A stretch of DNA of 11,800 bases from Chloroflexota bacterium. Lineage in GTDB: Bacteria > Chloroflexota > Anaerolineae > Anaerolineales > Anaerolineaceae. The notes under the pieces are model-generated. The model was not told the origin of the DNA. It ran no database searches and saw only the letters and a program-made list of their open reading frames with translations. Positions 805-11,800 of the stretch are shown here, in pieces. The stretch is from NCBI GenBank assembly GCA_021796375.1, contig JAJYJF010000029.1, forward strand, positions 1 through 11,800. Direction: 5' to 3'. Made by a program: the position numbers and the translations under genes. Each line of letters starts with the position of its first letter. The stretch's first letter is position 1.

Positions 805-1022
805 CGCAGCCCGGCGAAAAGGCCGGTGAAGCGGCGATTATCTCAGCTTTGCCGGCCGCCGGGAGGATTTGGTCCTCGCACGATTGGTTGTCTTGCCGCT
901 GGCAAAGACTGCGCGGGCGGTTCACCCCTGTTTTGCTGCCAGATCGAGCTTCTGATTCTGGCAAATTGATGACGTATGTGAACCAGGAACGGTTACATCC
1001 TGCGCTTGTTTACTACCCAAAA

Positions 1023-1036
1023 GTGATTAAAATCAC
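1023..1036. promoter_or_regulatory. CRP/FNR-type palindrome upstream of the sensor kinase
   Basis: The bases GTGATTAAAATCAC are a perfect inverted repeat except for the AA centre. They fit the GTGA-N6-TCAC core of CRP-family sites and also the TGAT-N4-ATCA core of FNR-type sites. The palindrome is centred at 1029.5. Two weak -10 candidates follow: TATATT at 1038-1043 and TTAAAA at 1061-1066. The second would put the site near -43, close to a usual activator position, while the first would make it overlap the promoter core. Neither has a clear -35 box. No CRP/FNR regulator is encoded in the window, so the binding protein is unknown. Confidence 0.5.
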
Positions 1037-1043
1037 ATATATT

Positions 1044-1112: not shown

Positions 1113-3149
1113 ATGATGATCTATTTCTTTACCGGGTTGTGTTTTAGCGGTCTGGGTTTGGCTGCTTACCTCCAGCTTCATCATGGAGGCGATCTGCCCC
1201 TGCGGAAACAGCTTCCCTGGCTGGCGGCCTTTGGGCTGACCTGTGGCGCGGCGAGCTGGATAGACATGTTCCTGGCCAGCGGCGCGCCGCAGAGCCTCGC
1301 CGGCAGCCTGGCGATCTTGCGGGCTGCGATGCAGGCGCTGAGCGGCCTGCTGCTCTTGAAATTCGGCTGGGGCATCCTCGACAACCTCACCCCCCTGCCG
1401 GCCTGGACCATCTTCATCCCGGGCGTGCTGATCGTGCCCATCGCCTACGCCATCACCTACGCGTCGACGACCTTTATCACCCCCTCCCCGATCGAGATCC
1501 CGGTCGACATCTGGTCTCGCTATTTCCTCTACCTGCCCGGCAGCATCCTGGCCGGGACCGGCTTCCTGCGCGAGTGGAACATCGAGCGCAAGAAGGGCTA
1601 CACCGACGTCGCCAACCTGATGATGGGCGCAGGGCTGGCTTTTCTGTTCGAGGCCTTCGTGGTCGGCCTGGTCGTCCCGGCCGCGCCGTACGGACCGGCC
1701 TCTTACTACAACTACAACCGCGTGGCCTCGAACGCCTTTATCGCCGACCAATCCAGCCCGGTCATGACGTCCATGCTGACCGCCTGGCTCGACTACGCTG
1801 AGGTGCTCAAGACCACCGGCCTGCCGATCGAGTTCTGGCGCATGATCTCCGCCTTCGCGGTGACCTTTTTTGTGGTGCGCGGGCTGGATGTGTTTGATGC
1901 CACCCAAAACCGCCAGTTCCGGGCGCTGCAGGTGGAGCGGGATCAGGCCCAGGAAGCGGCTTTCCAGGCGCAGATCGTCGCCCGGCAGACGGCCGAGAGC
2001 TGGACCGATGCGCTCGTCTCGATCAGCCGGCAGATCGCGGCGCTCGAGAATGTGGATGACATCCTGCAGTGCATCGTGCAGATGGCCAGGTGCCTGCTCG
2101 GTGCGGATTTCATCGGCCTGGCCATCCTCAACGAGGAACACTCGGTTCTCGAGATTAAGTGCTATGCGGACAACCAGCAGACGGTGATGGTCTCCCCGCC
2201 GGTGGCCGTCGTGAACCCGCTAATCCTGGGCGTGGTCAGCAGCTCCCACGAATACCTCACCCGCGGAGATGAAGCGCCGGAGATGCTCGAGCACGTCACA
2301 TTGACTTGCGATAAAGCCGCCAGCTCGATGGCGGTTGTCCCGCTCAACCTGGAAAGCCACCCGTTCGGGGCGCTGTGGATGGCGCGCTGCGAGCCGCTGC
2401 CGTTTTCGGAGACGGACGCGATCTGGCTGGAGTGTATGGCCGATCAGGTGGTGATCGCCATCCAGCACGGGCTGATGACTGCCCAGCTGCAGTCCTTATC
2501 CATCGTCGAGGAACGCGGCCGCATCGCCCGGGATATGCACGATGGGCTGGCCCAGGTGCTGGGATACCTCAACCTGCAGCTGCAGACGCTGGACGCCCTG
2601 TTCAAACAAGGCAAGCTGACCAGCTTCCAGAGCGAGCTCGAGCAGATGCGCCAGGCGATCCAGGTGGCCAATGCCGACGTGCGCGAGAACATCTTGAGCC
2701 TGCGCACGACCCTCTCAAATGAAAAAAGCCTGGTCTCAGCCCTGGGCGAGTACTTCGCGGAATTTGGGGTGCAGACGGGCCTTGACGTTGCCTTTATTAA
2801 TGATGTGGAAGGGAATATCAACCTGTCTTCCGTCGCCGAGGTGCAGCTGGTTTGCATCCTGCAGGAGGCGCTGACCAACGTGCGCAAACACGCCCACGCC
2901 AGCCATATCCGCGTTTTGATCAGCAAGCAGGACGAAGACATCGTGATGGAAATCTCGGATGACGGCATCGGCTTTGTGATGCACGCCGCGAAGCTCAGCT
3001 TTGGGCTGCAGACCATGCGCGAGCGCGCTCAAAGCGCCGGCGGCGAGTTCGAGGTCCATTCCATCCCGGATCAAGGCACGCAGATCGAGTGCCGCTTTCC
3101 TTGTTTAAAGCCCGAGAAGCTGAGCCAGCACAGCCTGGCCTTATCTTGA
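1113..3149 (+). CDS. Membrane sensor histidine kinase (7TM-like region, GAF, HisKA_3, HATPase_c)
   Basis: This 678-residue protein is a NarX/DegS-type (HPK7) kinase that should autophosphorylate and pass the phosphate to the response regulator at 4182. Residues 1-260 hold about seven hydrophobic segments (near 1-22, 33-55, 64-87, 97-117, 136-152, 166-190, 240-260), with an aromatic-rich loop around 190-235. A charged, probably coiled-coil stretch follows (about 262-295), then a GAF-like domain (about 300-455). The dimerisation and phosphoacceptor box IARDMHDGLAQVLGYLNLQL places the phosphorylated His at 476. The ATPase domain shows the N-box (LQEALTNVRKHA, near 583-594), the G1 motif DDGIGF (near 616-621) and the FGLQTMRERA block. 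The start is the first of two adjacent ATG codons; no good Shine-Dalgarno sequence is visible, so ATG 1116 is also possible. The signal is not evident; the 46-base gap to the DmsC-like gene suggests co-transcription. Confidence 0.9.
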   Translation: MMIYFFTGLCFSGLGLAAYLQLHHGGDLPLRKQLPWLAAFGLTCGAASWIDMFLASGAPQSLAGSLAILRAAMQALSGLLLLKFGWGILDNLTPLPAWTIFIPGVLIVPIAYAITYASTTFITPSPIEIPVDIWSRYFLYLPGSILAGTGFLREWNIERKKGYTDVANLMMGAGLAFLFEAFVVGLVVPAAPYGPASYYNYNRVASNAFIADQSSPVMTSMLTAWLDYAEVLKTTGLPIEFWRMISAFAVTFFVVRGLDVFDATQNRQFRALQVERDQAQEAAFQAQIVARQTAESWTDALVSISRQIAALENVDDILQCIVQMARCLLGADFIGLAILNEEHSVLEIKCYADNQQTVMVSPPVAVVNPLILGVVSSSHEYLTRGDEAPEMLEHVTLTCDKAASSMAVVPLNLESHPFGALWMARCEPLPFSETDAIWLECMADQVVIAIQHGLMTAQLQSLSIVEERGRIARDMHDGLAQVLGYLNLQLQTLDALFKQGKLTSFQSELEQMRQAIQVANADVRENILSLRTTLSNEKSLVSALGEYFAEFGVQTGLDVAFINDVEGNINLSSVAEVQLVCILQEALTNVRKHAHASHIRVLISKQDEDIVMEISDDGIGFVMHAAKLSFGLQTMRERAQSAGGEFEVHSIPDQGTQIECRFPCLKPEKLSQHSLALS

Positions 3150-3195
3150 ATGGATCCCCAAATGTTTTGGCAACTGCTTTGGATGGAAGAGTCCT

Positions 3196-4116
3196 ATGAA
3201 CCTGCGTGAATGGGCGCTGCCGGTGTATACGGTCTTGATGCAGATGGCCATCGGCGGGTTTGCCGCGCTGTGGATCCTCCGCGCCGCGGTTAAGGTCCGG
3301 CTGGAGCGCGCGGAGCTGGACCGCCTGATCCAAAACCCGCTGATCATCCTCTTCACCACCGTGGTTGTGGCGATGATCGGATCGCATTTTCACCTCAGCC
3401 GGCCGTATCTATCCTTTCTGGCCATCCTCAACTTCCGCTCCTCCTGGTTGAGCCGGGAGATCGTCTTCACCGTGCTGACCTTCAGCGTGATCGCCAGCCT
3501 GTCGCTGCTGCAAGTGACCCACCGCGGGCGAGAGCCTTTCCTCTCGGCGCTGGGCTGGGTGGGGATCGCCTTGGGGAGCGCGGCCATCTACTGCATGTCG
3601 CGCATCTATTTGCTGCCGACGCAGGTGTCCTGGAACACGCCGATCACGGTTTATACCTTTTACAGCACGGCGGTTCTGTTGGGATCGATGGCCATGGCGG
3701 CCATTCTGGTCATCAACCAGAAATTTCTCGAGATCCACAAGGTGGGCGATGCGACCGTTCGCGCCGGGGTTGTGCGCCAGGCGCTGTGCTGGCTGGCGGG
3801 GATCGCATTCGGCATGCTCTGGGTGGTTGTGGCCCTGAATGTTTTCATGGTCCTGTCGCTGCGCAGCGCCGGCGGCATCGCGCAGATCAGCCTGGAGCTG
3901 CTGCTGGGCCTCTACCAGCCGCTGTGGATCCTGCGCCTGCTCGTGCTGCTGGTCGGGGTGGGCTGGCTGGTGGAGACGGTGGTGACCAACGTCTGGAAGC
4001 GCACGACGAGCAGAGACCTGACCATGCCCGTATACATCGCCTGCCTGCTGGTGATGATTGGCGAGATCCTGGGAAGGTTTTTGTTTTATGCCACCCATGT
4101 AAAGATGGGGATTTAA
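3196..4116 (+). CDS. DmsC-family quinol-binding membrane protein lying between kinase and regulator
   Basis: A 306-residue, highly hydrophobic protein of the DmsC anchor family with about eight membrane segments. It matches the operon's own DmsC (8495-9415) without gaps for the first 89 residues, at 38 identities by my hand count, and again at TFY-TA-LLGS-AM and the end GRFLFYAT-V-GI. The family normally anchors a molybdoenzyme and oxidises menaquinol. His66 (in SHFHLSRP) and Glu88 (in SSWLSREI) fall where E. coli DmsC has His65 and Glu87, which are implicated in menaquinol binding. No catalytic or Fe-S subunit gene is adjacent: the neighbours are a histidine kinase 46 bases upstream and a response regulator 65 bases downstream. 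I infer a sensory role, reporting quinone redox state to the kinase. It might instead be a spare anchor. ATG 3196 follows GGAAGAG (3185-3191). Confidence 0.88.
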   Translation: MNLREWALPVYTVLMQMAIGGFAALWILRAAVKVRLERAELDRLIQNPLIILFTTVVVAMIGSHFHLSRPYLSFLAILNFRSSWLSREIVFTVLTFSVIASLSLLQVTHRGREPFLSALGWVGIALGSAAIYCMSRIYLLPTQVSWNTPITVYTFYSTAVLLGSMAMAAILVINQKFLEIHKVGDATVRAGVVRQALCWLAGIAFGMLWVVVALNVFMVLSLRSAGGIAQISLELLLGLYQPLWILRLLVLLVGVGWLVETVVTNVWKRTTSRDLTMPVYIACLLVMIGEILGRFLFYATHVKMGI

Positions 4117-4166
4117 CCCGATCGATCCATGCCAAAGCACCGGAAATGGGTTGTTGATGGGAATAT

Positions 4167-4174
4167 GGAGGGAG
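4167..4174 (+). promoter_or_regulatory. Ribosome binding site of the response regulator
   Basis: GGAGGGAG ends 7 bases before the ATG at 4182 and fixes that start. It is the strongest site in the regulatory locus; the kinase itself has none that is obvious, so the regulator may be translated in excess over the kinase. Confidence 0.7.
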
Positions 4175-4181
4175 TTCATCC

Positions 4182-4844
4182 ATGACCATTCGCGTCCTGA
4201 TCGCCGATGATCACAAACTATTCCGCCAGGGGCTGATCAGCCTGATGCGCACCCGCGAAGACCTGGTCGAGGTGGTAGGAGAAGCCGAGACCGGCGCCGA
4301 AGCCGTCCGCATGGCGGGCTTGCTGCGCCCGGCCGTGATCCTGATGGATATCTACATGCCCCAGGGCAGCGGGCTGCAAGCGGCCGCTGAGATCCGCCAG
4401 CGCTATCCCGAGGTAGCCGTGGTGATGCTGACCTCTTCGGAGAGCGACGAGCACCTCTACGAAGCGGTCCGCCTGGGAGCCTCCGGGTACCTGCTCAAGA
4501 GTCTGGATGCGGACGAGCTGTTCGACCTGCTGGTCGGCGTCATCCACGGCGAAGCCGCCATGACGAAAGCCATGGCGACCCGCCTGTTAAAGGGCATCGC
4601 CATGCGCTCGGCCGACCCGAATCAGGGTGAAGAACCCCTGACCGAGCGCGAGCTGATGGTCTTGAAATTGGTGGCAAAAGGCGCCAGCAACGCCGAGATC
4701 GCCGAGAGCCTCTCCATCTCGGTCAACACCGTGAAGAGCCACCTGAAGAGCATCTTGGAGAAGCTGCAGCTGGATAACCGCACCCAGGCCGCCGCTTACG
4801 CCGTCAACCGCGGGCTGGCCTCTCCCCGTTCCTTGGGGGGATGA
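4182..4844 (+). CDS. NarL/FixJ-family two-component response regulator
   Basis: This 220-residue cytoplasmic transcription factor should be the partner of the kinase at 1113. The receiver domain (about 1-120) has the acidic pair Asp9-Asp10, the phosphoacceptor Asp56 (VILMDIYMP), Thr84 (VVMLTSSE) and Lys106 (GYLLKSLDADEL), so all expected residues are present. A short linker leads to a LuxR-type helix-turn-helix (about 150-215) with LTERELMVLKLVAKG and the recognition region AEIAESLSISVNTVKSHL. Length and domain order are normal for the family. It ends 313 bases before dmsA, whose leader has palindromes that could be its operators. Control of the dms operon is inferred from position, not shown. 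Confidence 0.93.
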   Translation: MTIRVLIADDHKLFRQGLISLMRTREDLVEVVGEAETGAEAVRMAGLLRPAVILMDIYMPQGSGLQAAAEIRQRYPEVAVVMLTSSESDEHLYEAVRLGASGYLLKSLDADELFDLLVGVIHGEAAMTKAMATRLLKGIAMRSADPNQGEEPLTERELMVLKLVAKGASNAEIAESLSISVNTVKSHLKSILEKLQLDNRTQAAAYAVNRGLASPRSLGG

Positions 4845-4923: not shown

Positions 4924-4939
4924 TCACCCAAGTGGGTGA
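4924..4939. promoter_or_regulatory. Palindrome TCACCCA-AG-TGGGTGA, candidate activator site
   Basis: A perfect inverted repeat with 7-base arms and a two-base centre. Its centre (4931.5) is about 65 bases upstream of the transcription start expected from the TATATT box, a usual place for an activator. The response regulator encoded just upstream is the obvious candidate to bind it, since LuxR-type regulators bind as dimers to inverted repeats. This is an inference; the half-site does not match a consensus I can name. Confidence 0.45.
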
Positions 4940-4961: not shown

Positions 4962-4990
4962 TTGTGATGGATGTCACAGATGGGTATATT
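4962..4990 (+). promoter_or_regulatory. Sigma-70-type promoter of the dms operon
   Basis: The -35 box TTGTGA (4962-4967, four of six consensus bases) and -10 box TATATT (4985-4990, five of six) are separated by exactly 17 bases. Transcription would start near 4997. The CRP/FNR-type palindrome covers the -35 box and most of the spacer, so a protein bound there would block polymerase unless the true start is elsewhere. Confidence 0.5.
4963..4978. promoter_or_regulatory. CRP/FNR-type palindrome TGTGA-N6-TCACA upstream of dmsA
   Basis: TGTGATGGATGTCACA matches both conserved halves of the classical CRP-family consensus exactly. It is centred at 4970.5 and overlaps the -35 element. The related GTGA-N6-TCAC palindrome upstream of the kinase gene (1023-1036) suggests that one regulator of the CRP/FNR superfamily acts on both transcription units. 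The regulator is not encoded in this window. Confidence 0.55.
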
Positions 4991-5157: not shown

Positions 5158-7857
5158 ATGAGCAATAAAGATTTCCTCACCAAGGCCCTGACCGAAACCG
5201 CCGTCACCCGGCGCAGTTTCCTGAAGTGGAGTGCCATTCTGGGAGGCACGGCTGCGCTGGCTGGAGGGCTGAAATTTGGACTGAAACCAGAAAAAGTATC
5301 TGCACAATCCAACGATCCAGGTAAATGGGTACCCGTAGCATGCTGGCATAACTGCGGGGGCCGCTGCCTGAACGTGGCGTTAGTTAAAGATGGGGTGGTT
5401 GTCCGTCAAAAGACGGATGACACTCACCCAGACAGCCCGGATTACCCCCAGCAGCGGGGCTGCCAGCGTGGGCGTTCACAACGCCACCAGGTATTTGGCG
5501 TGGATCGCATTAAGTACCCGATGAAACGCAAGAATTGGGCTCCGGGTGGGGGGAAGAAGGAGTTGCGCGGCGCCGATGAATGGGTACGTATTTCCTGGGA
5601 CGAAGCCCTGGATATCGTGGCGAGTGAAATTAAACGCGTTAAAGCTGCTTATGGCAACACGGCTTTCTTCACACCCAGGGGTTCTAGCAAGCTCCTTAAT
5701 CTCTATGGCGGGGAGACCGGTTCTTACGGCGTCACCTCGGATGGTTCCTGGCCTCTTGTCCAGAGTATGATGTCCGGCAACTTGTATAGCCCGAACGACC
5801 GGCTGGATTATCGCAACTCTAGATTAATCGTGCTCTGGGGTTCGGACCCGGCCTGGAGCAGCGCAGGAAACCCCAATTTCAATTATTTGCAAGCCAAAAA
5901 GGCTGGGGCCAAATTCATTCTCGTGGACCCGTTTTACAGCGCCACGGTTCAAAGCTTAGCCGATGAGTGGATCCCGGTGAGACCCTCTACCGATACTGCG
6001 CTCTTGCTCGGTATGGCCCACTACATGATCACTAACAACCTGCAAGACCAGGCCTTCCTGGATAAGTACACGGTTGGTTTTGACGGCGATCATCTCCCGA
6101 AAGGTGCCGATCCCAAAGGTAGCTTTAAAGATTACGTTCTGGGCACCTATGATCACACTCCCAAGACCCCAGAATGGGCTTCTGAGATTTGCGGAACACC
6201 CCCAGATGTGATTCGGAGCTTTGCACAAGAAATTGCTACCACCAAACCGATGATCTTCCAATCATCGTCCGCTGTGGCCCGCACTCATCTCGGCCAGCAG
6301 TTCTGCCAGGCGTTTCTGACAGTCGGTTGGATGACGGGCAACGTGGGTACTTCGGGGAGCAGCATTACCCATAGCTATCACAGCGGCGCCAGCTACGGCG
6401 GTGCTTCATTGGTCGCACCCGGATCACCCAAATTACCCAGTGTGCCGAACCCACTCTGCCCAAACGGAGATGGTTATGGCTGGGCTAGCCCTGAAAAGCC
6501 TGGTAGCCACCTCGTGGTTTACGAAGAGAGCTGGGATGCCATCCTGAATGGCGAATACACCTCTCTGAAAGGAACGATGGCCGAGGCGAATGCGAACGGT
6601 AAAATCCCTGTCGATATCCGTTTGCTGTACATCGTGCGCGATGGCAATGGCGGTAACTCGTTGAACCAGTCCGCCGGCATCCCCAAGGGTATTCAGGCCT
6701 TCCGGAAAGTGGATTTCATCGTAACCAACGATATCGTGCTCTCGACGGTATCCAAGTACGCCGATGTGGTCTTGCCCTCGACGACTCCCTGGGAGCAGGA
6801 TCTGGGCGGTTTCTTGACCGGCAACCCTGAAATGGTGCTCTGGTACAACCAGGTCACCGAGCCGCTGTTCGAGGCTCGTGACGCCCAATGGATCGAGAGC
6901 CAACTGGCAACCCGCCTGGGCCTGGATCCGAATAAACTCTATCCCATTTCGCGGACTCAGCAGGGTTTCAACCAGTTGGTGGGCGCCAAGGTGATCAAAA
7001 ACGACGGCTCCGGATACGAGCCCCTGGTGACGATCACAGCGGACGACATCCAGAAACTTGGCGTCAAAGGCAAACCGCAGCAAGGCCGGATCACCTTTGA
7101 AGAACTGAAGACCAAGGGTGTTTACCAGGTGAAACGCTACCCGGGCGACCCATTCGGATTTATCTCCGGCAAAGACTTCCGCGATGACCCGGCAGCTCAC
7201 CCGGTTAAGACGGCCAGCGGCAAGTTGGAAATCTATTGCCAGGCCCTTTCGGATAAGATCGCTGCTTTCCGGCTCAGCACCTGCCCGCCGGTTGCCCAAT
7301 ACCGCAAACCGGTCGAGGGATATGAAGATACCTTCTCCGATTGGAACAAGAAAGTTAAAGGCGACTACCCCTTGCAGTTGGTCACCATCCACTATCCTCG
7401 CCGCAGCCATTCGGTATTCGACAATATCAGTAATTTGCGGCGTGCCTATCCCCAGGAAGTGACCATAAACAGCATCGATGCACAGGCCCGCGGCATTAAA
7501 AGCAATGATTTTGTCCTGGTTTCCAGCCGCTGGGGAAAAGTCCTGCGCCCGGTCGAGGTGTCCAACCGAGTTGTCCCCGGAGTGGTCATGATCGGCGAAG
7601 GTGCATGGGTCGAGATGGACGAAAACCTTGGCATCGATAAAGCGGGTGCAACGAATATGTTGAATGGTACTCACCCGACTGGCCAAGGCGAAGAACCCTG
7701 GAACTCCTGCAATATCCAGGTTGCTAAATGGACAGGTGCGCCATTACAAAACGACTACCAGTGGCCGCATCGAGTGCCAATCTCGGGAGCGTCGGACCCA
7801 CTTTCCGATGATTGGCATTTAGAGCCTGATGTCATCATCCCTCTAAAGGAGGCGTAA
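5158..7857 (+). CDS. dmsA: DmsA-like molybdopterin reductase, catalytic subunit, Tat-exported
   Basis: This 899-residue subunit would reduce an oxidised substrate (DMSO, an N-oxide or another oxyanion-type acceptor; not decidable here) at a Mo-bis(MGD) centre outside the cytoplasmic membrane. The N-terminus has a twin-arginine signal, TRRSFLKW with Arg18-Arg19, a hydrophobic core to about 42 and a likely cleavage after Val-Ser-Ala49. Cys62, Cys66, Cys70 and Cys102 (CWHNCGGRC, then GCQRGRS) form the FS0 [4Fe-4S] site. RIKYPMKR matches E. coli DmsA. Ser194 in YGVTSDGSW aligns with the DmsA Mo-ligand Ser region. The dinucleotide-binding domain occupies about 735-880. The protein is somewhat longer than E. 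coli DmsA. dmsB starts 3 bases after the stop, with its Shine-Dalgarno sequence inside this gene. GC is lower than in the flanking genes. The DmsA-type family is firm; the substrate is not. Confidence 0.92.
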   Translation: MSNKDFLTKALTETAVTRRSFLKWSAILGGTAALAGGLKFGLKPEKVSAQSNDPGKWVPVACWHNCGGRCLNVALVKDGVVVRQKTDDTHPDSPDYPQQRGCQRGRSQRHQVFGVDRIKYPMKRKNWAPGGGKKELRGADEWVRISWDEALDIVASEIKRVKAAYGNTAFFTPRGSSKLLNLYGGETGSYGVTSDGSWPLVQSMMSGNLYSPNDRLDYRNSRLIVLWGSDPAWSSAGNPNFNYLQAKKAGAKFILVDPFYSATVQSLADEWIPVRPSTDTALLLGMAHYMITNNLQDQAFLDKYTVGFDGDHLPKGADPKGSFKDYVLGTYDHTPKTPEWASEICGTPPDVIRSFAQEIATTKPMIFQSSSAVARTHLGQQFCQAFLTVGWMTGNVGTSGSSITHSYHSGASYGGASLVAPGSPKLPSVPNPLCPNGDGYGWASPEKPGSHLVVYEESWDAILNGEYTSLKGTMAEANANGKIPVDIRLLYIVRDGNGGNSLNQSAGIPKGIQAFRKVDFIVTNDIVLSTVSKYADVVLPSTTPWEQDLGGFLTGNPEMVLWYNQVTEPLFEARDAQWIESQLATRLGLDPNKLYPISRTQQGFNQLVGAKVIKNDGSGYEPLVTITADDIQKLGVKGKPQQGRITFEELKTKGVYQVKRYPGDPFGFISGKDFRDDPAAHPVKTASGKLEIYCQALSDKIAAFRLSTCPPVAQYRKPVEGYEDTFSDWNKKVKGDYPLQLVTIHYPRRSHSVFDNISNLRRAYPQEVTINSIDAQARGIKSNDFVLVSSRWGKVLRPVEVSNRVVPGVVMIGEGAWVEMDENLGIDKAGATNMLNGTHPTGQGEEPWNSCNIQVAKWTGAPLQNDYQWPHRVPISGASDPLSDDWHLEPDVIIPLKEA

Positions 7858-7860
7858 ATC

Positions 7861-8493
7861 ATGGCGAAGCAGTTAGCTTTTCACATTGACAACTCAGCCT
7901 GTATTGGCTGTAAAGCCTGCCAGATCGCTTGCCAGGATAAGAACGAACTGCCGCCGCAAATCTTATGGCGTCGCGTTTTCCAATACGGAGGTGGCAACTG
8001 GGTATCTGATCCATCCATCCCCATACTTTACCGAGCCAATGGTGTTTACAGCTATTCGGTGTCGGTAGCCTGTATGCATTGCCAAAACCCGATCTGCGTA
8101 ACTGTTTGCCCGACAAAGGCGATGCATAAACGCGACGATGGGGTCGTATTAGTCGATCAGACGAAATGTGTTGGCTGCCGATACTGCGAATGGGCCTGCC
8201 CCTACGGCGCCCCCCACTTCGATCAAACCAGCGGTGTCATGACCAAATGCACGTTTTGTGAAGATTTGTTGGCGCAAGGCGAAAACCCTGCCTGTGTCGA
8301 TGCGTGTCCCATGCGCGCAATAGACTATGGCGAGTTAGAAGATTTGCGGCAAAAGTACGGCGACATCGATGCAATCGAGCCGCTGCCGTTAGATCGATAC
8401 ACACATCCGTCTGTTGTCATCACACCGAACAAACACGCGCAGCTAAGTGGCACTGGCACAGGCAAAATCCAGAACTTACTGGAGGAGTTGTAA
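7861..8493 (+). CDS. dmsB: DmsB-like electron-transfer subunit with four [4Fe-4S] clusters
   Basis: This 210-residue ferredoxin-type subunit would carry electrons from the membrane anchor to DmsA. It has the full set of 16 cysteines in four groups: 14/17/20/24, 71/74/79/83, 103/106/109/113 and 130/133/145/149. The motifs are those of the family (CIGCKACQIAC, CMHCQNPICVTVCP, CVGCRYCEWACPYG, CTFCEDLLAQGENPACVDAC). There is no signal peptide; in this family the subunit is exported by riding with the Tat-tagged catalytic subunit. ATG 7861 is preceded by AAGGAGG (7846-7852) and lies 3 bases after the dmsA stop; dmsC begins 1 base after its own stop, so the three are tightly co-translated. Length is normal for DmsB. 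The family is certain; the name follows the neighbours. Confidence 0.94.
   Translation: MAKQLAFHIDNSACIGCKACQIACQDKNELPPQILWRRVFQYGGGNWVSDPSIPILYRANGVYSYSVSVACMHCQNPICVTVCPTKAMHKRDDGVVLVDQTKCVGCRYCEWACPYGAPHFDQTSGVMTKCTFCEDLLAQGENPACVDACPMRAIDYGELEDLRQKYGDIDAIEPLPLDRYTHPSVVITPNKHAQLSGTGTGKIQNLLEEL
8481..8487 (+). promoter_or_regulatory. Ribosome binding site that sets the dmsC start
   Basis: GGAGGAG lies at the end of dmsB, 7 bases before ATG 8495. It favours that start over the in-frame GTG 8447 inside dmsB. The resulting N-terminus (MNTREWAL) also matches that of the paralogue at 3196 (MNLREWAL). Confidence 0.8.
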
Positions 8494-8494
8494 A

Positions 8495-9415
8495 ATGAAC
8501 ACCCGTGAGTGGGCTCTAATTGCCTTTACCATCTTAAACCAGATGGCGGTGGGCTCCTTCCTGGTCCTGGGCATTGTCCACGCCTACGCGATGCGCAAGA
8601 AGGGCATGCAGCAGGCCGACCAGCTCAGCGACATGGCCCTGGTCTCGATCGTTCCGGTCGTCGGCCTGGCGCTGATTGCCTCCCTGTTCCACCTGGGGAA
8701 CCCGATCAACGCTCCGCGCGCCATCGCCAATCTTGGGACCTCCTGGCTGAGCCGCGAAATCCTGCTCGACCTGATCTTCGCCGCATTGGCATTGGTCTTC
8801 GCCTTCATGCAGTGGCGCAAGATTGGCTCGTTCAGCCTCCGCAACATCATCGCCTGGATCGCAGCCATCGAAGGCCTGGGCCTCATCTACGTCATGTCTA
8901 ACGCCTACATGCTGGAAACCGAGCCCTCGTGGAATACCCTGGCGACGCCGGCGACCTTCTACGCGACGGCCTTCCTGCTCGGCTCGCTGGCCATGGGCGC
9001 GGCCTTCGTGGCCAACTATGCCTACGTCCAGAAACACAATCCGGGCTGCGCCAGCGAACAGTGCGAACTCATGCGGGATGCCGTGCGCGGGATCTCGATC
9101 TCTACCCTCGTCTTCCTGGGGGTCGAGTTCGTGACCCTGCCCCTCTACCTCGCCACGCTGTCCTCCGCCGGCCAGGCTGCCCAATCCAGCCTGCTGCTCA
9201 CGATTGGCCCCTTCAGCACGGTATTCGTCCTGCGCCTGGTTCTCGGTTTCCTGGGCGCGGGCGTGTTCGGGATTTTCCTGTACCGCAACGCGGCCAGCGC
9301 CGGGCACGAGAAGACCCTGGGCTACCTGGTCTACGCGGCATTCGCCCTGGTGCTGGTGGCCGAAGTCCTCGGCCGGTTCCTCTTCTACGCGACCCGGGTC
9401 CGCATCGGAATCTAG
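8495..9415 (+). CDS. dmsC: DmsC-like membrane anchor subunit (menaquinol oxidation)
   Basis: A 306-residue integral membrane protein with about eight hydrophobic segments that anchors the DmsAB dimer and takes electrons from the quinol pool. Key features match the DmsC family: the start MNTREWALIAFTILNQMA, SLFHLGNP with His66, TSWLSREI with Glu88 (counterparts of E. coli His65 and Glu87, implicated in quinol binding), TFYATAFLLGSLAMGA, and the end GRFLFYATRVRIGI. It is the same length as the DmsC paralogue at 3196-4116. Beyond the first 60 or so bases the DNA becomes clearly richer in GC than dmsA and dmsB (41 of 60 at 9301-9360 against 30 of 60 at 7981-8040), which hints at a separate history or selection. 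A strong hairpin follows the stop codon. Confidence 0.92.
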   Translation: MNTREWALIAFTILNQMAVGSFLVLGIVHAYAMRKKGMQQADQLSDMALVSIVPVVGLALIASLFHLGNPINAPRAIANLGTSWLSREILLDLIFAALALVFAFMQWRKIGSFSLRNIIAWIAAIEGLGLIYVMSNAYMLETEPSWNTLATPATFYATAFLLGSLAMGAAFVANYAYVQKHNPGCASEQCELMRDAVRGISISTLVFLGVEFVTLPLYLATLSSAGQAAQSSLLLTIGPFSTVFVLRLVLGFLGAGVFGIFLYRNAASAGHEKTLGYLVYAAFALVLVAEVLGRFLFYATRVRIGI

Positions 9416-9510: not shown

Positions 9511-9540
9511 TGGAATGATCCAGATGGTAGATGAATGATA

Positions 9541-9547
9541 AGGAAGG
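9541..9547 (+). promoter_or_regulatory. Ribosome binding site that sets the torD-like start
   Basis: AGGAAGG lies 4 bases before ATG 9552. The upstream in-frame ATG 9531 has only GATGG-like sequence ahead of it, and the extra residues (MNDKEGR) add nothing family-like, so 9552 is preferred. Confidence 0.6.
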
Positions 9548-9551
9548 TCGG

Positions 9552-10253
9552 ATGAAATCGGTATTCAACACGGAAGATTGGACGGAGACTCTGACCGGAG
9601 AGAGTCTTCTGTTGGGTTTACTGGGGAAGATGCTCTACACGCCGCCCGGCCGGGAGTGGATGGAAGAGCTGATCCGCGGCGATCTGTTCAGCGAGCCGCC
9701 TTTTGGCGGGGACCAGCCCCTCGTGCAGCAGGGGCTGCAGACGCTGCAGGCCTGGTGCCTGGAGAACCAGAATGGGATCCCCGACCCGGCGCTGGCGGAC
9801 CTACAGAACGATTACCTGCGCCTGTTCATTGGCCTGGAGAAAGTCCTTGCTCCGGCCTGGGAATCGGTGTATTTCAGTAAAGATCGCCTTATTTTCCAGG
9901 AGCAGACCCTGCAGGTGCGCCAGTGGTACGCGCGCTACGGGGTGGAGATCGAGCGCCTGCACAAAGAGCCGGACGACCACATCGGCCTGGAGCTGATCTT
10001 TGTGGCTCACCTGGCGCAGTGCGCGGTAGACCACCTGGCGCAAGCCGATCCCGCCGCTTTCGAGGCTGACCTGACGGCGCAGCGCCAGTTCCTGAGCGAG
10101 CACCTGCTGCGCTTCGCCCCGGCCTGGTATGCTCTGGTCGAGGAACATGCTTCCACTGACTTTTACCGCGGCCTGGGGCGCCTGATCTGGGGCGCACTGC
10201 AAGCCGCAGCCGATCTCCTGACGGTCGAAATCCCGATGGGAGCAGTGTATTGA
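9552..10253 (+). CDS. TorD/DmsD-family molybdoenzyme chaperone
   Basis: A 233-residue, mostly helical cytoplasmic protein of the TorD/DmsD (NarJ-like) family. These chaperones bind the Tat signal of their reductase, hold the apoenzyme during Mo-bis(MGD) insertion and prevent early export; here the client would be DmsA. Two family signatures are clear: YLRLFIGLEKVLAPAWESVY (the usual Y-x2-LF-x-G with a downstream P-x-WESVY) and KEPDDHIGLELIF (the EP-DDH-x4-EL motif). Length is slightly above the typical 200 or so residues. It is separated from dmsC by 136 bases and a strong hairpin but overlaps the next gene by 4 bases, so it forms a tight unit with the following Fe-S protein. I give no symbol because TorD, DmsD and related subgroups cannot be separated by eye. 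Confidence 0.9.
   Translation: MKSVFNTEDWTETLTGESLLLGLLGKMLYTPPGREWMEELIRGDLFSEPPFGGDQPLVQQGLQTLQAWCLENQNGIPDPALADLQNDYLRLFIGLEKVLAPAWESVYFSKDRLIFQEQTLQVRQWYARYGVEIERLHKEPDDHIGLELIFVAHLAQCAVDHLAQADPAAFEADLTAQRQFLSEHLLRFAPAWYALVEEHASTDFYRGLGRLIWGALQAAADLLTVEIPMGAVY
10238..10242 (+). promoter_or_regulatory. Ribosome binding site supporting a TTG start
   Basis: GGGAG lies 7 bases before TTG 10250, whose last two bases share the TTGA overlap with the TGA stop of the torD-like gene. The overlap and spacing support TTG as a true start and translational coupling. Confidence 0.6.
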
Positions 10254-11452
10254 ACCTGTTCTCGGTTGCCGAATGGATCGCCTCTTTCGGGCAGACGGAG
10301 GTCCGCTACGACCCGCGCCGCTGCGTGGTGGCCAGCGACCGCTATGGAGAGTGCCAGGCGTGTATCCTGACCTGCCCAGCAGGCGCCATCAGCGCCGGCA
10401 AGCCGCCCGTCTTCCACGAAGAAAAGTGCGTCAACTGCGGCGCCTGCCAGGCGGCCTGCCCGAGCAGCGCTCTGCACGCTCCCGATCCCCTGGCTGCGAT
10501 CTTCCAGCCGCCGCGGGCGAGCGTTTCTGGCGCGCTGGACCTCTTCTGCGCCCGCCTGCCCCAGGGCCAGGGTCTGGTTGGCCCGGCGCACAGCACCGGC
10601 TTTCGCGTGAAGGGCTGCCTGGCCTCGGTGAGCGCGGGCGCTTACGCGGCCCTCATTGCCCGGGGCTTCGAGCACGTCTGGGTGCGCACGGATGCCTGCC
10701 GCGGCTGTCCCTGGGAGCAGCTCACGGCGCAGATCGAGCGCCAGGTGGAGCGCGGGAACCAGCTGTTGGCATTCTGGGGGCTGGCTGGTTCGCTTTCCGT
10801 TCTGAGGGCGCTCGAGAAGGCGCCGCAGCGCCCGCTGTGGAACGCGGGGCCATCTCAAGCGGATCTCTCGCGGCGCGACCTGTTCCGGATGGCAGTCCGC
10901 CGCCCGGCGCCGGCGCCAGCGCCGGCGCCCCAACCGCGGGCGATAGAGAACGAAGACCTGTTGAGCCGCGACCGGGTATATCTCCTGCAGGCGGCGAGCC
11001 AGCTGCGCAGTTCTCTGGGCGACCCCACCGCTCGTCTGGAGGGGCTGGGTTTTGCCAGCCTGGCGCCCTCCGGCGCGTGTACCGCCTGCGGCGCCTGCGC
11101 GCGGGTTTGCCCCACCGGCGCGCTGCGCTTCACCGCCGCCCCCTCTGAGACCAGCTTCCAATTGAGCTTCCAGGCCGAAGCCTGCAACGGCTGTGCGGCC
11201 TGCCTGCGGGTATGCTCTCCGGCGGCAATCACCCTTGACCCCGCCCCGCAAGCGGCCGCCGTATTTTCTGCCCGCGACCCGGTTGTCTTGCACAGCGGCG
11301 CGCTGGCGCGCTGCGAGCGCTGCGGGATCCCCTTCGCCAGCCAGGATGGGCAGCACCTGTGCACGCTGTGCGCCTACCGCGCCGAGCACCCCTTTGGCTC
11401 GGTCCTGCCGCCCGGGTTCCAACGCCCCGCGCCGCAGGCCGGGAAGGAGTAG
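10250..11452 (+). CDS. Multi-cluster iron-sulfur protein (two ferredoxin domains, Cys-rich middle, zinc-ribbon-like tail)
   Basis: A 400-residue cytoplasmic-type protein with no signal peptide. The N-terminal ferredoxin domain has Cys25-x9-Cys35-x2-Cys38-x3-Cys42-Pro, then Cys60/63/66/70-Pro, so the first spacing is longer than usual. The middle region (about 95-200) has Cys100, Cys123, Cys150 and Cys153 in an alternating pattern (KGCLASVSAG, a GFEHVWVRTDACRGC strand-turn) that resembles MvhD/FlpD-type domains; this likeness is from memory. An Ala-Pro linker follows (RRPAPAPAPAPQPR). The second ferredoxin domain has Cys277/280/283/287-Pro and Cys312/315/318/322. The tail Cys355-x2-Cys358-x12-Cys371-x2-Cys374 looks like a zinc ribbon or rubredoxin-like knuckle. 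Placement between a TorD-type chaperone and a radical SAM gene suggests electron supply to maturation or to an accessory reaction. The exact function is unknown. Confidence 0.8.
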   Translation: MNLFSVAEWIASFGQTEVRYDPRRCVVASDRYGECQACILTCPAGAISAGKPPVFHEEKCVNCGACQAACPSSALHAPDPLAAIFQPPRASVSGALDLFCARLPQGQGLVGPAHSTGFRVKGCLASVSAGAYAALIARGFEHVWVRTDACRGCPWEQLTAQIERQVERGNQLLAFWGLAGSLSVLRALEKAPQRPLWNAGPSQADLSRRDLFRMAVRRPAPAPAPAPQPRAIENEDLLSRDRVYLLQAASQLRSSLGDPTARLEGLGFASLAPSGACTACGACARVCPTGALRFTAAPSETSFQLSFQAEACNGCAACLRVCSPAAITLDPAPQAAAVFSARDPVVLHSGALARCERCGIPFASQDGQHLCTLCAYRAEHPFGSVLPPGFQRPAPQAGKE

Positions 11453-11457
11453 GGCGC

Positions 11458-11800
11458 ATGATCACGGATATTAACCCCGCTACACTGGAGATCATCCGCA
11501 ACCCGGCCCTGCGCGCGTATGCCGCGCGGTACCTGGAGATCTATCAGGATTTCATGCAGCAGGTGGAGACGACCGGGGTGGAAATCGCCGCACCGGAAGA
11601 TGGCCAGGCAGGGCCGTCCATCGCTGAGCTGCAGCAGAAGGGCTTGCGCGTGCGCAACGACGGCAAGAGCCTATACGTCAACCGGATCTCGCCTGCCTGC
11701 CAGGCCTGCCAGACCGCCGCGGACAGCGCTACCTTTTTCATTTCCCTGCGCTGTCACCGCAGCTGCTTCTACTGCTTCAACCCCAACCAGGAAGACTACG
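11458..11800 (+). CDS. Radical SAM protein, N-terminal part (3' end outside window)
   Basis: The reading frame is open from ATG 11458 to the window end, giving 114 residues. Arg98-Cys99-His-Arg-Ser-Cys103-Phe-Tyr-Cys106 is the CX3CX2C motif that holds the [4Fe-4S] cluster for S-adenosylmethionine cleavage, set after a strand (TFFISLRC) as in the family. A further CxxC (Cys81, Cys84) stands 15 residues earlier, and FNPNQEDY follows. The start is backed by AAGGAG (11443-11448), 9 bases upstream, and lies 5 bases after the Fe-S protein stop, so the genes are co-transcribed. The N-terminal 75 residues before the CxxC are helical and not recognised. The reaction is unknown; the setting suggests a role in maturation of, or metabolism linked to, the molybdoenzyme. 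Confidence 0.85.
   Translation, partial: MITDINPATLEIIRNPALRAYAARYLEIYQDFMQQVETTGVEIAAPEDGQAGPSIAELQQKGLRVRNDGKSLYVNRISPACQACQTAADSATFFISLRCHRSCFYCFNPNQEDY

Follow-up and report, generated by a model that had tools for sequence, protein, structure and literature searches.

Why should the quinol anchor of a respiratory enzyme be encoded between a sensor kinase and its response regulator? The question is raised by an 11,800-nucleotide stretch of a Chloroflexota genome (contig JAJYJF010000029.1 of assembly GCA_021796375.1). By the window, we mean this whole stretch; positions are given within it, and residue numbers are those of its proteins unless another protein is named. Three genes follow one another on its forward strand: a histidine kinase (1113..3149), a protein of the DmsC family that we call DmsC1 (3196..4116), and a NarL/LuxR-type response regulator (4182..4844). 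There are 46 and 65 bases between these genes and 313 bases from the regulator to dmsA, the first gene of a dms operon. A sequence-only reading had described this arrangement, and the open reading frames (ORFs) do lie at these places, with Pfam in agreement. It had also remarked that DmsC1 stands without a DmsA or DmsB partner. We find neither directly adjoining DmsC1 in the window, and the downstream dms operon carries an anchor of its own, DmsC2 (8495..9415, forward strand; assigned by Pfam and by tree), which is 36% identical to DmsC1. It appears that, in some Chloroflexota, the membrane part of a respiratory enzyme was copied and that the copy now serves as the standing partner of a sensor kinase controlling the genes of that enzyme. 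We think it quite probable that the three genes are a dedicated unit that controls dms.

Is the gene order found elsewhere? We collected related loci from two sources: scanning a single genome for each species gave 66 loci, and of the 298 genomes of a class sample, 13 matched at E up to 1e-20. Neighbours were called by comparing every ORF with the window's proteins. Once the window's own copies, ORFs fused to DmsB, rows below 40 bits, ORFs of fewer than 250 residues, and 6 duplicates had been left out, 93 rows remained. Twenty-seven of the 93 score higher against DmsC1 than against DmsC2, and the kinase is upstream in every one of them. A strict rule that requires both neighbours is satisfied by 26 of the 27; in the last one (L021), the regulator is in an overlapping, extended ORF. 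None of the other 66 rows is in a kinase-regulator setting: 63 adjoin DmsB and 3 adjoin neither. Conversely, DmsB is not a neighbour in any of the DmsC1-type rows (0/27), nor in the window. A later match (L163) has the same order of kinase, DmsC1, and regulator, and one of the short ORFs that we dropped (L028) covers part of DmsC1 and has the regulator after it, with the kinase side cut off. So the order recurs in many assemblies, not in this one only, and because it is seen in 27 other DmsC1-type rows and in L163, it is more than chance. The peptide patterns used in the scan were derived from DmsC1-type sequences, so these counts are of loci found and are not a census. DmsC1 is uncommon: it is in 4 of the 298 class genomes (G000, G027, G252, and G256) and, at E up to 1e-50, in 3 of the 400 genomes of a phylum sample. 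The named DmsC1-type loci are from Chloroflexota assemblies, except for L019, which is labelled SAR324.

The tree of DmsC proteins tells the same story. It includes 95 proteins (28 from the kinase-regulator setting, 64 beside DmsB, and 3 beside neither), and its bootstrap is not fully settled. All 28 proteins from the kinase-regulator setting, window included, form one clade (support 100/100) whose stem is 0.86 changes per column long, and 0 of the 67 other proteins are in that setting. DmsC1 thus stands apart from the ordinary anchors, the point for which the sequence-only reading had proposed a phylogeny. As for L019, it has the whole set of kinase, DmsC1, regulator, and dmsABC and is nested among the Chloroflexota in this tree, which points to gene transfer or to mis-binning.

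Could DmsC1 be a spare anchor for another DmsAB pair that is encoded elsewhere? Three of the genomes with DmsC1 are 96-99% complete (G027, which is one contig, 99%; G252, 96%; and G256, 98%). Each has exactly one DmsB over the cut-off and exactly two DmsC proteins, which are DmsC1 and DmsC2. The window's own genome (64% complete) gives the same picture, and there is no second DmsB over the cut-off in G000, G027, G252, or G256. In G027, G252, and G256, the next-best matches to the DmsB model score 82, 130, and 116 bits against a cut-off of 214.1 and are Fe-S subunits of other enzymes. This cut-off is imperfect, as a true-looking DmsB (from G089) scores 213.6. Given one DmsB over the cut-off in each of the three genomes, we set this candidate aside.

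The kinase itself carries a sign of the association. Its N-terminal domain has seven predicted transmembrane helices (7-TM; about residues 1-270), and this membrane region (1113-1982, residues 1-290) has no Pfam match. It is followed by GAF (313-452), HisKA_3 with His476, and HATPase_c, as judged from the ORF and from Pfam. The sequence-only reading called the kinase NarX-like. This is fair for the kinase core, but the matches to the NarQ model (136.8 bits, residues 394-664) and the NarX model (112.9 bits, residues 444-664) are far below the NCBIfam equivalog cut-offs of 553 and 578. The UhpB model matches residues 468-664 only (83.5 bits; cut-off 408). Between TM6 and TM7 there is an insertion of 27 residues (residues 195-221; 1695..1775, forward strand), which is a candidate docking loop. 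The TM6-TM7 loop is 55-57 residues long in all 26 DmsC1-linked kinases, versus 29 residues in all 13 aligned relatives without DmsC1 (5 sister kinases, discussed below, and 8 distant kinases that aligned out of 12 fetched). Among the kinases aligned, then, the inserted loop is found only in those linked to DmsC1. In the stretches around the 12 distant kinases with the 7-TM domain, a regulator adjoins the kinase or forms one protein with it, and DmsC1 was not found. Judging by charge and by the placement of the helices, the loop is predicted to be periplasmic. It is conserved in sequence, yet residues 191-223 are below pLDDT 50 when the kinase is predicted alone, and the insertion is also without confidence in a tethered kinase-DmsC1 model. 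A conserved loop of low confidence is what a segment that becomes ordered on a partner might look like.

The kinases of the DmsC1 loci form one clade as well (26 of 39 rows; SH-aLRT 100, by a quick method). Across 21 complete loci, DmsC1 distances correlate most strongly with those of the kinase core, its membrane domain, and its GAF domain (r = 0.90, 0.88, and 0.85), and less so with those of DmsB, DmsC2, the regulator, and DmsA (r = 0.75, 0.74, 0.65, and 0.64); pairs of loci are not independent, and the dms genes are the best-scoring ones, which in L005 are perhaps not the nearest set.

Is DmsC1 still built like a quinol-binding protein? It matches PF04976 at 72.5 bits (curated cut-off 22.3) and has the eight-helix NrfD fold; no solved structure matches its profile by sequence at E up to 1. 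In E. coli DmsC, of the NrfD-like family, the quinol site involves His65, Ser82, and Glu87 (PMC8076601). DmsC1 resembles E. coli DmsC in fold, length, and quinol site. When aligned with E. coli DmsC (the reference sequence is from NC_000913), the window's Ser63, His66, Ser83, and Glu88 are the counterparts of Ser62, His65, Ser82, and Glu87. The alignment bears out the two pairs that the sequence-only reading had named, His66 with His65 and Glu88 with Glu87. His66, Ser83, and Glu88 are kept in all 28 members of the DmsC1 clade, and Ser63 is replaced by Ala in 14 of them. Besides having no DmsB neighbour, DmsC1 differs from E. coli DmsC in having an extra histidine, His64, that is specific to the clade, and in losing the counterpart of Arg115 (Arg in 2/28 DmsC1-type proteins versus 42/42 DmsC2-type proteins). 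The clade-specific residues also show a weak P-side bias (16/21 versus 11/26, Fisher p = 0.037; sides were assigned from predicted helices). Because ordinary anchors keep the E. coli-type quinol-site residues too, we only infer that DmsC1 reads the redox state of quinol.

One protein, P0177, joins the kinase and DmsC1 in a single chain of 1002 residues (one cluster, on one contig), perhaps through a lost stop codon. This and one DmsB-type fusion were the only fusions with this DmsC domain that we found among proteins of about 550 to 1750 residues. The N-terminus of E. coli DmsC is periplasmic. In the fusion, the N-terminus of the DmsC part should also face the periplasm, from the charge pattern as judged by eye, and the C-terminus of the kinase should be cytoplasmic. 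This is topologically odd, and we do not use P0177 as proof of contact. Similarly, a fusion-based tethered model of the kinase and DmsC (pTM 0.54) yielded no measure of the interface and has a tether that would need to pass through the membrane; the model is therefore silent on contact either way. It was built on an alignment of joined kinase and DmsC rows, and we drew on it for nothing but how its DmsC part matches in fold.

What might the regulator act on? By Pfam it has Response_reg and GerE domains, and we read Asp56 in its receiver domain from the sequence. An operator-like palindrome, TCACCC-AAGT-GGGTGA (4924..4939, no strand assigned), lies upstream of dmsA and is a candidate site for the regulator. 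Within 3 mismatches of 14, a copy of ATCACCC-N4-GGGTGAT is upstream of dmsA in 22 of 22 DmsC1 loci with a readable interval (in 100 shuffles, the mean was 0.26 loci and the maximum was 2). The exact inner dyad TCACC-N6-GGTGA is there in 14 of the 22 (at most 2 in 20 shuffles). In the sister loci, the palindrome lies upstream of whichever dmsA comes first after the regulator (5/5); the second dmsA of L128 and that of L129 have no palindrome. Twenty other dmsA genes all lack it within 500 bases. Two of these 20 (in L032, whose DmsC duplicates one in G155, and in L029) are from genomes that do have such a kinase; when only stretches lacking a kinase of this type are counted, the result is 0/18, as judged from the stretches examined rather than from whole genomes. 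In L029, a one-mismatch palindrome is found in the interval that separates torD-dmsABC from the divergent kinase; looser matches in that interval do not exceed chance expectation. Genome-wide, there are 1 to 4 exact copies in each of nine genomes (and 0 of the reversed control pattern), and all nine have at least one copy in the dms region. Copies away from dms are found in G000, G011, G027, and G256. For example, exact TCACCC-N4-GGGTGA lies just upstream of other two-component genes in G000:C140 (L146 near 2563) and G011:C77 (L150 near 2847). The regulon may be wider, or the site may be common to other regulators. Upstream of the kinase, no shared dyad rises above the shuffle level (at most 2 loci). 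The conserved palindrome supports the earlier suggestion that the regulator controls the downstream dms operon, and the palindrome is presumably what the regulator binds.

How could such a unit work? Comparison of sequences supports the unit itself, its single origin, the DmsC1-linked loop, the kept pocket residues, and the operator; beyond this, we infer kinase-DmsC1 contact, quinol as the signal, regulator binding at the palindrome, and the sign of the response. DmsC1 would be an anchor duplicate that left the enzyme and became the membrane co-sensor of the 7-TM kinase. It would bind menaquinol at a pocket on the periplasmic side, made of His66, Ser83, Glu88, and the new His64. Quinol binding or redox state would alter DmsC1, and the change would pass to the 27-residue periplasmic loop of the kinase and on to its GAF/HisKA_3 core. 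The NarL-type regulator would bind ATCACCC-N4-GGGTGAT upstream of dmsA and so control the dms operon, and the enzyme would be made when the reducing equivalents of the menaquinone pool need an outlet. We lean, if only slightly, toward this full quinol-sensing reading, in which a duplicated respiratory anchor is the kinase's co-sensor for its own operon, in a three-part system like UhpABC.

In UhpABC, UhpC is the co-sensor, UhpB is the kinase, and UhpA is the regulator; UhpC is a transporter paralogue that senses sugar phosphate. The unit described here is similar in having a multi-TM kinase of the HisKA_3 type, a NarL-family regulator, and a co-sensor that is a membrane paralogue of a protein of the target operon (DmsC1 and DmsC2). 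Unlike in UhpABC, the proposed co-sensor is a quinol-anchor paralogue of the DmsC family rather than a transporter, and the kinase is not UhpB. ArcB and other quinone-responsive kinases take the quinone pool as their input. The input that we propose is alike, but a separate subunit with a quinol site would do the sensing, instead of a domain of the kinase. Both co-sensor membrane proteins such as UhpC and enzyme-derived sensors are already known kinds. In the regulatory hydrogenase system HoxBC-HoxJ-HoxA, a relative of a respiratory enzyme is the sensor unit with a kinase that controls the enzyme genes, and in DctA/DcuB-DcuS, a multi-TM membrane protein is the activity switch of a membrane kinase (both described in PMC6978683). 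HoxBC is an intracellular catalytic unit and DctA or DcuB is a working transporter that serves as co-sensor, whereas here only a cofactor-free membrane anchor would be reused, as a dedicated paralogue outside the enzyme. Among the matches listed from open-licence literature, neither titles nor the starts of abstracts mention a kinase whose partner is a DmsC or NrfD protein, although this does not establish that none has been published. For the best-known kinases, how they read quinone-pool redox is still under debate. The proposed sensor has a known fold and a mapped quinol site and is separate from the kinase, so that binding and signalling would be separable. If our reading is correct, then the NrfD fold is capable of serving as a receptor, and cells have a new way to read the state of their own electron-transport chain. 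His64, the loop, and the operator could be used as markers to find such systems in genomes.

A sister lineage suggests that the anchor may not be the only borrowed part. Five sister kinases (G011, G085, G089, G118, and G155) are 42-45% identical across roughly 190-200 membrane-domain residues. Each is encoded beside its regulator and a dms operon, but DmsC1 is missing. In 4 of the 5 loci, a different set of genes lies directly upstream; it encodes a molybdopterin oxidoreductase together with an Fe-S subunit and a chaperone, and it includes no DmsC-type anchor. The N-terminus of the oxidoreductase is receiver-like in the two copies that were scanned (Response_reg E of 0.0024 and 0.00023; neither reaches the Pfam cut-off), and matches in G089 and G085 also span this part. 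At E up to 1e-100, the oxidoreductase is in 5 of the 298 class genomes, namely those four and G246 (37% identity), and these five do not overlap with the four DmsC1 genomes. At L153 (4207-7107, reverse strand), L128 (1989-4715, forward strand), and L159, the oxidoreductase has a degenerate receiver-like N-terminus and no Tat motif by eye; it adjoins an Fe-S subunit, a chaperone, and the sister kinase, and no anchor of the DmsC type lies between them. The sister oxidoreductase is possibly an enzyme-derived signalling part, and gene order suggests that related kinases recruited different pieces of molybdo-respiratory complexes. A bolder version of our proposal is that DmsC1 is a dedicated quinol-redox sensor, with the kinase loop replacing DmsB as its partner, and that this kinase family repeatedly adopts molybdo-respiratory pieces (the anchor here and the molybdoenzyme in the sister lineage). 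We offer this version tentatively and would not quite bet on it.

The main rival is that DmsC1 docks with the operon's own DmsAB and reports the presence, assembly, or turnover of the enzyme to the kinase, rather than the state of the quinone pool. DmsC1 does keep the N-terminal REW.LP motif, and of the 31 positions that are conserved in both the DmsC1 and the DmsC2 groups, 30 are on the P-side half. There is one DmsAB pair available in each of the three genomes, the molybdoenzyme of the sister lineage itself adjoins the kinase, and enzyme-activity sensing with kinases is known from HoxBC-HoxJ (PMC6978683). But DmsC1 distances track the kinase and not DmsB: the partial r is 0.73 for the kinase membrane domain when DmsB is controlled for, versus 0.31 for DmsB when that domain is controlled for. 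Nor, as mentioned, does any DmsC1-type row adjoin DmsB. We consider docking to be unlikely, but it is the alternative that we take most seriously.

We give rather less credence to the idea that DmsC1 is a structural or inhibitory partner of the kinase, similar to LiaF, with a quinol pocket that is a relic and a 7-TM domain that does the sensing. The 7-TM domain is indeed more conserved than DmsC1 (mean distance 0.42 versus 0.77), and it has many relatives without DmsC1 (at E up to 1e-5, it is in 127 of the 298 class genomes, versus 4 for DmsC1). On the other hand, the pocket residues are invariant even though the DmsC1 proteins average just 48% identity, which is not expected of a relic. Finally, DmsC1 belongs to the DmsC family by Pfam, so it might be an ordinary spare anchor that lies between two regulatory genes by accident. 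The single clade, the constant gene order, the lack of a spare DmsB over the cut-off, and the linked insertion in the kinase loop largely contradict this, and we think it very improbable.

The putative target operon and the genes that follow it can be described one by one. dmsA (5158..7857, forward strand, with an ATG start at 5158) encodes a DmsA-like molybdoenzyme with a Tat-type N-terminus; it scores 508 bits against TIGR02166 (cut-off 777.7) and 20.7 bits against TAT_signal (cut-off 22.7), in a scan that used the ORF from 5152, two residues 5' of the ATG. DmsB (7861..8493, forward strand) is a four-cluster Fe-S subunit (TIGR02951, 227.5 bits, over the cut-off of 214.1). In several phyla, DmsB and DmsC are joined in single ORFs (L039, L040, L042-L044, L046, L047, L052, L061, L064, L065, and L068). 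After DmsC2 comes a chaperone of the TorD/DmsD type (9531..10253, forward strand), which is above the Pfam cut-off for Nitrate_red_del and below the cut-offs of the DmsD and TorD models. A multi-Fe-S protein (10250-11452; from the ORF and Pfam) is encoded 3' of torD, and many related loci have a similar Fe-S gene in the same place. It is followed by the start only of a cysteine-rich protein (11359-11800).

The window also contains two palindromes of the form TGTGAN6TCACA, which we take to be the CRP/FNR type of site; neither is assigned to a strand. AGTGATTAAAATCACA (1022..1037), with 1 mismatch, is upstream of the kinase gene, and TGTGATGGATGTCACA (4963..4978), a perfect CRP-type palindrome with 0 mismatches, is upstream of dmsA. 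By chance, 0.21 such palindromes are expected in the window. One-mismatch copies are also found upstream of the kinase in L010, L013, L017, and L018.

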